Origin: Planctomycetaceae bacterium
GTDB lineage: Bacteria > Planctomycetota > Planctomycetia > Planctomycetales > Planctomycetaceae
Length of the DNA stretch: 49,537 bases
NCBI GenBank assembly: GCA_947476295.1
Contig: CANJQC010000028.1
Location: 1 to 49,537, forward strand
Direction of reading: 5' to 3'
Shown: positions 46,312 to 49,537 of the stretch, one piece after another
Position numbering within the stretch: position 1 is the first letter of the stretch
Layout of the letters: each line of letters opens with the position of its first letter
Program-made: the position numbers and the translations under genes
Notes under the pieces: model-generated
Seen by the model: only the letters and a program-made list of their open reading frames with translations
Told to the model about the DNA's origin: nothing
Databases searched by the model: none

Positions 46312-46957
46312 ACCTGTGCGACGCGATTAGGAGTCGCGTCTGCGTTCAGATGAGATGGGCAGAAAAGCTGGATGCAAACGGATTCACAAGCCGCGTCTCG
46401 AACCCGGCGTTGCAAAACGCGCGCCTGGGTGGCTTGTGGCGGGTGCCTGTCATCTCGACGGCAACAATTACATTTCTGAGATCATGTTTTTCGACGGCTT
46501 GCTTCAGTGTATTGAATGCGTTTATCGATGCGATGAACGAATCAATCGCTGAAGAGTGGCAAAAGAAACTATCGCAACCACTTCACATGGGAGCCACCAA
46601 GTTGTGTGTGACCAGAGAAATGGCCGCATTTTACATGAGGCACGGTAATGGAATACCCAATGAACTTCGGTAAGCGATTGCCCAAACGACCCGACCAGCG
46701 GAATCTAATTCGACCAACATCTGCCCCCGTTTGAAAACCACCGACCAGAGCTATACAGAATTCAGCATCCTAACCGCACTTTTGGCGGATGCCGTCGCCG
46801 CTTTCCTGAATCATTTCTCTGCCATCATGGCGCACGCGATGCGGCAACACTGAACCGCCATTCTGTCGCAAGAAAGTCTCAAGATACTTTTCACAAGCAA
46901 CCTCCGGACTGATACCGCCACTGGGTAAGATTGATGGTCCCTTGTGGAGGCGCAGCA
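46312..46957 (+). other. intergenic stretch before the recombinase, no identifiable gene
   Basis: Two overlapping frames at 46350-46673 have partly protein-like phrases (SIAEEWQKKLSQPLHMGATK; GACHLDGNNYISEIMFFDG) but no start signals, no recognisable domain and mutual overlap. I treat them as noise or debris. GGAGG at 46946-46950 belongs to the recombinase. Confidence 0.4.
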
Positions 46958-47248
46958 GTGGTAAAAGTTCTGGGGTATGTCCGTGTCAGTACAGAAGAAC
47001 AAAGCGAGTCAGGGCATTCGCTCGGAGCACAGCGGGAGAAACTGAAAGCCTACGCTGCGTTGTATGACTTGGAACTGGTGGAAATTGTTGAAGACGGTGG
47101 CCAGTCAGCAAAGACGCTGAATCGTCCCGGTCTCCAGCGAGCATTGAAGATACTTCGAAACGGTGAAGCGGATGGAATTGTCATCGTCAAGCTGGACCGC
47201 TTGACTCGCTCTGTTGTTAGCAGATTTTCAGCGTGCGCGATGCGTTAG
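46958..47248 (+). pseudogene. serine recombinase, N-terminal catalytic domain only
   Basis: The GTG at 46958 with GGAGG seven bases upstream gives VVKVLGYVRVSTEEQSESG, whose YVRVSTEEQ contains the nucleophile Ser (S11). SLGAQREKLKAYA, EDGGQSAKTLNRPGLQRAL and the active-site IVIVKLDRLTRSV follow, the resolvase/invertase catalytic core. Right after LTRSV (about 47211) the sequence diverges and stops after 14 unrelated codons. The long E-helix and the DNA-binding parts are missing; intact members are 180 to more than 500 residues. The lost part coincides with the 3' end of the convergent DUF2786 gene, marking a rearrangement junction near 47211-47217. Confidence 0.85.
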
Positions 47249-48020
47249 CGTTGTACTTGCCTCCGTCAGTGCGTCCCTGTCCGCGTGCATCGCTGCTGCC
47301 AGTGCTTCCGCCTGCTGACTGCATTCTGAGTTTGATGCCGCCACCTTCCGGGCTGGCAAGCCATGCTTTGGCCAGTGTGGCCTTTTGCTGAATCAGGGCA
47401 TTGCGGCGCTCGACCAGAACCATTGCCGTTGACGTTCCGGTGTAGGTCAAGCGGCGTGCCTCGCTGTACTCTGTTGCTTCGCGTTCCTTGCGCTTCTCTT
47501 CGACACCCGCAACAAATCCTTCGGCGTAGGCTGCGCCGTCTCCGCGTGCCACAGAACCATATCGCAATCGGGCCAGTGCTGAGATAGCTAGACGCAATTC
47601 GCCCCAAAGCTGAATTGCCGTTTCAACGTCTTCTGCGATCCCATAGAAGACAAGCGACGTCGCCTTTGTTGCCTTTCCGTTTGCATCTCGCACGGCAAGG
47701 CCTGCCGCCGTTTGTCGATAAACAGGAGGGCTTACATAATATCCAACGCCGCCGACGATCTTTGCGACAACTCCAGCCAGTGATTTTTCCCATTGCGGCA
47801 TCCGTGCGTTGTCGCTGAACACCTGTGTCTTCGTTCGCGGTGCTGTGCGTGCGTCCTGCTCTTGTTCCTGTGGGCTGGTTTGTAAGTCATCTTCGCTGAG
47901 GTGGTGGCGATCCATGAGCCGCGCTGCGATAGCCAGGGCGTTCTGCACCTCCTGCTCTGATGCTGCGTCGTCGTTGGCGATGCTGAGGATTTTTCGGATT
48001 TGATCTTTTACGTCTGCCAT
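47217..48020 (-). CDS. DUF2786 family protein
   Basis: The 267-residue product has the DUF2786 helix pair at its N-terminus (IRKILSIANDDAASEQEVQN, ALAIAARLMDRHHLSEDDL). A mixed domain of the kind usually following it comes next (MPQWEKSLAGVVAKIVGGVG, TSLVFYGIAEDVETAIQLWG). DUF2786 proteins occur in phages, plasmids and genomic islands; their function is unknown. The C-terminal 50 residues are low-complexity and Gly/Ser/Arg-rich. AGGACC precedes the ATG at 48020. A small broken frame lies upstream on the same strand. The gene's 3' end abuts the truncated recombinase, suggesting it came with an insertion. Confidence 0.78.
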   Translation of the reverse strand: MADVKDQIRKILSIANDDAASEQEVQNALAIAARLMDRHHLSEDDLQTSPQEQEQDARTAPRTKTQVFSDNARMPQWEKSLAGVVAKIVGGVGYYVSPPVYRQTAAGLAVRDANGKATKATSLVFYGIAEDVETAIQLWGELRLAISALARLRYGSVARGDGAAYAEGFVAGVEEKRKEREATEYSEARRLTYTGTSTAMVLVERRNALIQQKATLAKAWLASPEGGGIKLRMQSAGGSTGSSDARGQGRTDGGKYNANASRTLKIC

Positions 48021-48381: not shown

Positions 48382-49227
48382 ATGATGCCGCTCATCGCCA
48401 CCTTCCTCGACGCGGAAACCAGCAAGATCGACGCATTGATCGCGGAGCAGCGTCGGTTGATTGAGTTACTGAAGGAAAAGCGGCAGGCGGTCATCAGTCA
48501 CGCGGTCACCAAAGGCCAGAACCCCGATGCGACGATGAAGGCGTCCGGCATCGAATGGTTGGGCGACGTGCCGGAACATTCGAGCGTCGTGGCACTAAAG
48601 CATTTGGTTTCGCGGCCAATTATCGACGGGCCGCACGTATCGCCACAGAAACATGATCAGGGTGTGCCGTTCATTTCCGCGGAATCCATCGGCAAAGGGT
48701 TTATCGACTTCGATAAGAAATGGGGATATATCTCACCCGAAGATCACAAGGTTTACTCGCAAAGATACTCGCCACAGCGAGGCGACATTCTGATGGTTAA
48801 ATTGGGAGCAACTACCGGAGTTCCAGCCATTGTTGAAACAGATACGGACTTCAGCGTCTGGGTTCCTTTGGCGGCAATTCGTCTTAAAGATCAAATTCAA
48901 CCGTACTTGATCTTTCACGTTCTTCGGTCAAACAACCTTCGAGTGGCTTATCAACTGAGTTGGACATTTGGAACACAACAGACGCTCGGTCTAGGCACGA
49001 TCTCAAACCTGCAAATGCCAGTGCCACCGGCGCAAGAGCTACAGGAGATCGTTAATTACTTGGATGCCGTGTTGCCAGGGTTTGACTCACTCGAAGCCGA
49101 AGCCACGCGCGCCATTGACCTGCTTCAAGAACGCCGCACGGCCCTGATCTCCGCTGCCGTCACCGACAAAATCGACGTGCGTGAAATGTCACGCGGAGGC
49201 GAGGAGAACGCGGAGAAGACGAAATGA
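48382..49227 (+). pseudogene. hsdS: type I restriction-modification specificity subunit HsdS, C-terminal half
   Basis: The frame from the ATG at 48382 (281 residues) starts abruptly inside the HsdS central conserved region (IATFLDAETSKIDALIAEQR, LIELLKEKRQAVISHAVTKG, SGIEWLGDVPEH). It continues with one target-recognition domain (HLVSRPIIDGPHVSPQKHD to TISNLQMPVPPAQE) and the distal conserved helix (EIVNYLDAVLPGFDSLEAE, LLQERRTALISAAVTDKIDV). HsdS normally has two such domains and about 400-450 residues; the first is missing. The upstream part of the open frame (48019-48381) is antisense to other sequence and not HsdS. Half-size HsdS subunits can work as dimers, so activity is not excluded, but there is no good ribosome binding site and hsdM/hsdR are not in the window. 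Its 3' end is tandemly repeated. Confidence 0.78.
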
Positions 49228-49537
49228 ACTTGCTACCATCTCACTCGTCCTCCGCGCCTCCGCGACTCCGCGTGAGCCATCTCTTACAGGCATCTATCCC
49301 CAAGGCCCAGCGTTGCATCGAACTCTGTCAAGAACGCCGCACGGCCCTGATCTCCGCTGCCGTCACCGACAAAATCGACGTGCGTGAAATGTCACGCGGA
49401 GGCGCGGAGAACGCGGAGAAGACTAAATGAGCTTGCTACCATCTCACTTGTCCTCCGCGACTCCGCGTCTCCGCGTGAGCCATCTCTTACAGGCATCTAT
49501 CCCCAAGGCCCAGCGTTGCATCGAACTCTTTCAAGAA
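49125..49537 (+). repeat. tandem direct repeat, 203-bp unit, covering the hsdS 3' end
   Basis: Unit 1 (49125-49327) and unit 2 (49328-49530) differ at about seven positions, and a third unit starts at 49531 where the window ends. Each holds the last 34 or so codons of hsdS plus about 100 bases of following sequence. Within each unit an imperfect palindrome built from CGCGGAG motifs pairs 49189-49206 with 49258-49275, and in unit 2 49392-49409 with 49461-49478. Part of this palindrome encodes the hsdS C-terminal residues SRGGxENAEKTK. Confidence 0.9.
49224..49430 (+). CDS. repeat-borne 68-codon frame carrying the HsdS distal helix
   Basis: The ATG at 49224 overlaps the hsdS TGA as ATGA. The frame reads through the spacer of the repeat (NLLPSHSSSAPPRLRVSHLL, QASIPKAQRCIELC) into QERRTALISAAVTDKIDVRE and stops at 49430, where the next ATGA (49427) opens the same frame again to the window end. 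It is created by the 203-base duplication, whose length is not a multiple of three. Whether it is translated is unknown; there is no separate ribosome binding site, so it would depend on coupling to hsdS. Confidence 0.35.
   Translation: MNLLPSHSSSAPPRLRVSHLLQASIPKAQRCIELCQERRTALISAAVTDKIDVREMSRGGAENAEKTK

Follow-up and report, generated by a model that had tools for sequence, protein, structure and literature searches.

A tandem array at a decaying type I restriction-modification locus of a Planctomycetaceae bacterium, probably duplicated from a gene-less GxxExxY-type hairpin and the 3' end of hsdS

At one end of a contig of a Planctomycetaceae bacterium, short reading frames for the tail of the type I specificity subunit HsdS follow one another, the stop codon of each overlapping the start codon of the next, which raises the question of whether such a chain serves to make HsdS tail peptides or is what duplication left behind at the end of a gene. 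The window, i.e. the whole stretch of 49,537 nucleotides that we analysed, is contig C28 of a 252-contig draft genome (G000:C28). TRF reports one tandem array with a period of 203 at 49125-49537 (2.0 copies, 96% matches, no indels), in agreement with the two full units and the start of a third that a sequence-only reading had described; the array appears as two copies plus a stub because the contig stops at 49537. The ATGA overlaps lie at 49224-49227 and 49427-49430, both where that reading had put them, and the HsdS distal tail it had assigned to each unit is confirmed by a profile match, residues 20-57 of the 68-aa frame corresponding to positions 404-441 of the 448-residue HsdS model (E 1.2e-12). 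The features of the array and its surroundings are as follows.

48382..49227, plus strand: truncated hsdS frame, 281 aa if started at 48382 (HsdS profile 176-442 of 448, E 5.1e-79)
49120..49188, plus strand: HsdS tail copy 1, LLQERRTALISAAVTDKIDVREM (sequence and ORF list)
49125..49537, plus strand: tandem array, period 203, 2.0 copies (TRF; cut by the contig end)
49189..49275, no strand assigned: hairpin 1, a gene-less palindrome with arms TCACGCGGAG.../...CTCCGCGTGA (motif search and folding)
49212..49227, plus strand: GGAG (49212-49215), 8-base spacer and ATGA (49224-49227), in which the stop of frame 1 overlaps the start of frame 2 (sequence)
49224..49430, plus strand: 68-aa frame composed of the hairpin right arm MNLLPSHSSSAPPRLRVSH, HsdS tail copy 2 and the next left arm SRGGAENAEKTK
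49392..49478, no strand assigned: hairpin 2 (motif search and folding)
49415..49430, plus strand: second GGAG and ATGA (49427-49430) (sequence)
49427..49537, plus strand: third chained frame, open at the contig end (frame reading)

The frame at 48382..49227 comprises the central conserved region, the second target-recognition domain and the distal tail, and closes at the first ATGA inside hairpin 1. As it spans profile positions 176-442 of 448, the first target-recognition domain (TRD1) is absent from this hsdS. A longer ORF from 48019 (402 aa) matches Pfam Methylase_S (E 9.8e-6), with its first 121 residues giving no family match in profile scans. The C28 frames do not show the two target-recognition domains together with the central and distal regions that mark a member of the HsdS family and represent an HsdS fragment; the distal conserved region itself is present both here (E 1.2e-12) and in a frame of a related array on contig C90 (E 7.1e-15). 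Near the hsdS fragment, the window holds a truncated N-terminal domain of a serine recombinase (resolvase) at 46931-47248, after which a DUF2786/DUF7168 gene lies on the other strand (47217-48020).

Each 203-bp unit consists of an 87-base palindrome and 116 bases of the hsdS 3' end. Pieces of 93 bases fold as DNA with -32.8 and -36.5 kcal/mol (z -7.5 and -8.8), none of 200 shuffles being as good. The hairpins of the window begin with TCACGCGG and finish with CGCGTGA, and stop, start and a Shine-Dalgarno-like GGAG, the latter 8 bases 5' of each ATG, are located in or beside the loop. The left arm (TCACGCGGAG..CGCGGAG..CGCGGAG) translates as SRGGAENAEKTK and forms the end of the upstream frame, which closes at the TGA of the loop ATGA, while the frame opened by the ATG reads MNLLPSHSSSAPPRLRVSH across the right arm and has the HsdS tail then in frame. 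The left arm is stop-free in all three frames and the right arm has a stop in one. The frames are linked from unit to unit because the unit length equals 2 modulo 3; the arithmetic by which the sequence-only reading had explained the chaining (203 = 3x67+2) is right, but a length of this class arises in one of three cases for any tandem unit. In the whole genome, the arm motif TCNCGCGGAGNCGCGGAG with at most 2 mismatches has 31 matches compared to 2 for a reversed-pattern control, 17 of the 31 sitting in the repeats of C28, C47 and C90 and some being overlapping readings of one arm. An ATG falls within the first 20 loop bases in 19 of 36 palindrome readings (8.5 expected from shuffling), a count that is not independent evidence since a hairpin can enter it once per strand and an array with several of its copies; an ATG is absent from the loop of several hairpins in this family.

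Related units were found on other contigs of the genome. The array on C90 (92% identity over the 413-base query; period 203, 2.3 copies) lies inside a 23-kb contig with both sides, including its right end, present. There, a fusion of the HsdM N-terminus with the HsdS end is followed by ATGA, a unit, ATGA, a unit ending in EFADVEAA and a stop, a PIN-domain gene and an hsdR of 1039 aa. The fusion (L008:626-1474; 282 aa) joins the HsdM N-terminus in frame to the last part of HsdS and is possibly a deletion remnant or a chimera. A third, single unit is found on C47 behind a GxxExxY gene (TIGR04256 / PF13366, E 3.7e-40) with arms of the unit's motif on both sides, and is followed by a hairpin and the start of hsdR. 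The end of C47 overlaps the start of C96 exactly over 149 bases, and the hsdR on C96, behind this unit, has an internal deletion; the right end of C28 overlaps neither the start of C90 nor that of C96. The 33 bases just 5' of the GxxExxY gene match the hsdM end of the congener G081 (94%), and the gene therefore appears to occupy the place of hsdS. Units agree at 106/111 bases within C28 and at 161/164 within C90, and those of C28 agree with C90 at 187/203 and with C47 at 165/170. As the C28 and C47 units are as alike as those within C28, with C90 standing apart, the unit has either spread between loci or arisen once before their separation. A 152-bp array with a related hairpin forms the end of C34, and two motif copies, also with 152-bp spacing, are located at the end of C172; these ends (L048, L056) are perhaps two sides of one array.

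Comparison with relatives provides a locus without the array. In G081, the syntenic locus contains hsdM, a half-size hsdS, a PIN gene and hsdR, shares 92.8% identity with C90 across an alignment of 3012 bases that starts at C90:1783, and has no match to the arm motif in 7.9 kb. Its hsdS (L179, G081:C242), placed between hsdM and the PIN toxin gene and before hsdR, encodes 233 aa with one recognition domain, ends in KIDVREFADVEAA and possibly represents a natural homodimeric specificity subunit (for half-size HsdS see excerpts of PMC6158711). To the right of the hairpin, the sequence is not the one that follows in G081; the comparison therefore does not show a simple insertion at the G081-type point, and no target-site duplication is readable. 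The composite of C28-type tail and hairpin was found in none of 149 other genomes of the family, with at most 5 candidates scored per genome. The exact pattern of arm, GGAG and ATGA, which is too strict to gauge spread, matches in 4 of 294 genomes of the phylum, i.e. at 4 places in the own genome, 2 in G153 and 1 each in G379 and G393; the place in G379 is the start of a GxxExxY gene, and those in G153 and G393 show no HsdS tail by eye. A second, orphan HsdS tail lies ~530 bp behind the hsdS end in G147 (L180, G147:C23, near 43770 and 44300), with no arm motif in 8.7 kb of this locus.

Arrays of the same layout occur at two other hsd loci. In the congener G128 (L029), a 175-bp unit is repeated 4.4 times; its HsdS tail is not that of C28 (profile positions 389-437 of 446, E 1.9e-8), but the hairpin layout is the same. 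Here the tail frames of successive units are not chained, a start reaching the tail frame only two units on, and, judging from the ORF list without profile scans, no long HsdS frame is evident among the ORFs of at least 120 aa around the array. In a Candidatus Nitrotoga (L079), 2.6 copies of a 238-bp unit at 1121-1731 lie between hsdM and hsdS in the order hsdM, 238-bp units, hsdS, GxxExxY, hsdR; this hsdS looks full length, and hsdM and hsdR extend past the stretch examined. HsdM ends with SRGDAENAEEKP at an ATGA in the hairpin, overlapping short frames are readable through the array from hsdM to hsdS, HsdS runs through a left arm and stops at the ATGA starting GxxExxY, and GxxExxY overlaps the start of hsdR. 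To judge by this locus, expression is not necessarily disrupted by an array of this kind. Profile matches running into hairpin-encoded residues (4 of 16 in G128, 1 of 11 in the window) hint that HsdS proteins with hairpin-encoded ends may be among those behind the profile models. TRF finds 14 arrays with a period of at least 60 in 80 GxxExxY loci; the arm motif is contained in 7 of the 14 and missing from the other 7, while random placement gives a mean of 2.5 and reaches 7 or more in 7 of 2000 runs.

The arms around the C47 gene led us to the flanks of GxxExxY genes, which we scored by the best inverted repeat pairing the 200 bp before the gene with the 200 bp after it, at a threshold of at least 13. 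The first sample, biased in that it comprises the best 80 of 304 relatives of the C47 protein, has inverted repeats at this threshold in 59 of 77 loci, 3 of the 80 being dropped for short flanks, compared to 27% of 1540 swapped flanks, 0.6% of 166 distal windows and 1.1% of 1233 windows of the same spacing; the value for swapped flanks is high because arm sequences are common to several loci. The second sample, obtained by searching 40 genomes of the phylum, consists of 27 full-length loci, of which 21 are new and 6 belong to the own genome (C47 as the query of the first sample included; partial matches and matches without a locus left out), and has inverted repeats in 18 of them (14/21 new, 4/6 own), against 25/702 swapped flanks and 2/282 windows elsewhere. 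This leaves 18/77 and 9/27 loci, respectively, with no inverted repeat at the threshold. The arms of the second sample differ widely by locus and mostly retain an iterated layout, e.g. repeated CACGGAG or ACGCAGAT. In loci from many phyla (L069-L148, i.e. the 80 of the first sample; 21 of L181-L207; L059-L064 of the own genome), GxxExxY is mostly bounded by inverted repeats of such iterated units, whose layout varies much less than their sequence.

The right-arm motif starts before the end of the stop codon in 35 of 80 first-sample loci, giving C-termini like HRIVNNLPTSASPRLRVNQ, which the start of the 68-aa frame in the window resembles by eye. The PD-(D/E)XK active site is intact: an alignment of 17 proteins has E28, E78, K80 and Q92 throughout, and D68 nearly throughout. 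In 11 of 78 loci with a start found, a frame of 100 codons or more ends in a stop that overlaps the GxxExxY start (ATGA or GTGA/TTGA), counted with script-chosen starts, stop-to-stop lengths and no background comparison. Among 71 neighbours on each side (E 1e-5), HSDR_N was found in 9 downstream, a share biased upwards because the first sample grew from a GxxExxY gene in an hsd locus, and Methylase_S in 2, N6_Mtase in 2 and N6_N4_Mtase in 4 upstream; the others belong to a wide range of families, 84 on the upstream side and 66 on the downstream side (25 listed for either side), and 52 of the 71 upstream neighbours are oriented like GxxExxY. A GxxExxY element on C140, which has CCACGGAA arms of its own, is missing from the orthologous intergenic site in G081; the matches on either side are separated there by 89 bp, compared to 700 bp on C140. 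This difference is old, as the flanks are only 73-75% identical, and gain and loss are not told apart by it; the orthologous interval of G147 measures 478 bp and has no GxxExxY frame by eye. Matches to GxxExxY number 8 in 72,556 plasmid records and 0 in 50,697 phages, a scarcity that counts against free mobility and would suit a chromosomal, RAYT-like element. The literature searched, with subscription papers and preprints outside reach, yielded no description of flanking inverted repeats linked to GxxExxY, no mention of PDDEXK_3, TIGR04256 or four 15-base arm sequences, and no title on GxxExxY among works on palindromes in Planctomycetes or on REPIN/RAYT. In PMC8934634, a GxxExxY domain is reported to replace cas4 next to a reverse transcriptase gene, and the term GxxExxY and the family PF13366 also occur in PMC12085832 and PMC9756366, respectively.

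These data support a model, to which we assign a probability of about 0.72, according to which the array is a tandem duplication of a gene-less GxxExxY-type hairpin fused to 116 bases of the hsdS 3' end in a decaying type I restriction-modification locus. It builds on the palindrome itself, the likeness of its arms to the repeats around GxxExxY genes, the arrays at two other hsd loci and the syntenic locus of G081 lacking both hairpin and array. The source would plausibly have been an hsd operon with GxxExxY between hsdS and hsdR, from which the GxxExxY gene may have been lost. The leftover hairpin loop would have kept the SD-like GGAG, the start and the overlapping stop, and the ATGA chain would then derive from the hairpin loop. 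Repair or replication slippage at the hairpins may have copied the hairpin together with the adjoining gene end, so that every duplication at the hsdS end would add a tail with a coupled start, and re-initiation at each ATG would make tail peptides. In a deletion-derivative test, the best loop-start scores in this genome are 7 and 9 of 18 (shuffles average 2.6-2.8, s.d. 1.5), a weak result, and the Nitrotoga hairpin, the only strong case, scores 16 of 18. The best reading of the chained frames is that they are mostly a by-product. The sequence-only reading is thereby supported in part: duplication debris at the end of hsdS, one of the two outcomes it had offered, is well supported, and for the other, translationally coupled tails, the anatomy is permissive, with GGAG 8 bases before the ATG and a stop-start overlap, but there is no sign of selection for tail peptides.

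A functional relay in which coupled HsdS tail peptides bind S or M subunits and alter type I assembly or specificity would be in line with frames open through the units of C28, C90 and C47, with the GGAG placed before each ATG in the window, with the overlapping frames spanning the Nitrotoga array from the hsdM end to a full-length hsdS and with the half-size HsdS of G081. We consider it unlikely, as the C28 hsdS is without TRD1, C90 carries an HsdM-HsdS fusion and the hsdR following the C47 unit has lost an internal part; such damage to the hsd genes nearby speaks against the tails having a selected role here. Moreover, the stop-start overlap is supplied by a type of hairpin also found in unrelated places, the G128 start reaches the tail frame only two units on, and open frames come cheaply with a left arm stop-free in three frames and a right arm with a stop in one. 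Judged by its sequence context, a tail peptide, if made, is probably a by-product in a decaying type I locus. It is very unlikely that the repeated tails are a substrate for exchange, recombining with other hsdS copies and moving target-recognition domains. Known phase-variable type I systems shift target-recognition domains by recombination between hsdS copies, and the locus would fit such a role, which the sequence-only reading had suggested, in its related tails on three contigs, the loss of TRD1 in C28, the C90 fusion, the half-size hsdS of G081 and the truncated resolvase N-terminus nearby (46931-47248). However, no exchange via the array was shown and no reservoir of alternative domains was seen, the Methylase_S search of the genome giving only C72 (two domains) and C28, a search that missed the partial domain on C90 and possibly others.

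That the palindromes were amplified as REP or BIME elements by RAYT (Y1) transposases appears quite unlikely. The genome has 11 Y1_Tnp matches, palindromes at gene ends look like a REP layout, and RAYT genes flanked by terminal inverted repeats are on record (PMC3733652), but among the flanks of 8 of the 11 matches 7 are without an arm of the family and one has a single arm-like match. Y1 flanks having inverted repeats carry other sequences, and the arms in the window, which are without the GTAG/CGTC tag, resemble GxxExxY flanks instead; a dedicated Y1 transposase flanked by the hairpin repeat was not found among the 8 checked, which disfavours RAYT-linked REP elements. An assembly artefact at the contig end might be suspected, since the window terminates inside a repeat and C34 and C172 likewise end in hairpin repeats, and the sequence-only reading had allowed for one; it is extremely unlikely because a diverged array lies within C90, with both sides present inside a 23-kb contig.

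Comparison with known systems places the array between several of them. Like the distal tail of HsdS, the 68-aa frames match the last ~40 residues of HsdS profiles, but the tail is detached from the rest of HsdS and has hairpin-encoded residues at both ends. In the type of hsdS represented by EcoR124I and EcoDXXI, short repeats lie between the two recognition domains; here, too, a repeat lies within hsdS, but as a 203-bp unit at its 3' end. For EcoKI, coupling of hsdM and hsdS is treated in excerpts of PMC3510504. With REP/REPIN-RAYT systems, the hairpins share short gene-end palindromes, some of them arrayed, that also flank an associated enzyme gene. In contrast, the enzyme is a PD-(D/E)XK GxxExxY protein, as is the C47 gene beside the third unit, and not a Y1 tyrosine transposase, and the hairpins lack the GTAG or CGTC tag at one palindrome end by which REPs are defined (PMC3733652, in part). 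As in MITEs, a short element with terminal inverted repeats, the 87-base palindrome, has a gene-bearing counterpart with the same ends, the C47 GxxExxY gene between its arms; unlike in MITEs, this counterpart is not a known transposase. At the window hairpin, with its right flank differing from the G081 locus, no target-site duplication is readable.

Beyond the array, we propose, with about even chances of being right, that elements with iterated inverted repeats at their ends form a large family, in which GxxExxY genes are the enzyme-bearing members and gene-less hairpins are derivatives that multiply tandemly together with host gene ends. In such elements, the left arm would carry the ribosome-binding GGAG and be translatable as the final part of the gene before it, the right arm would often form the last codons of the nuclease gene, and stop-start overlaps would let the element sit in operons, e.g. 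hsdS-GxxExxY-hsdR, without breaking them, and gene tails, that of HsdS among them, may in this way be amplified and move between loci. The link of GxxExxY to its own inverted repeats is a more interesting result than the array. An odd repeat thereby becomes a testable connection between palindromic repeats across bacterial genomes and a nuclease family that is common but functionally blank. If GxxExxY proteins do act on these repeats, they would be a second type of enzyme besides RAYTs behind REP-like DNA, which would help to explain hairpins at gene ends inside operons and the origin of tandem gene-tail arrays.
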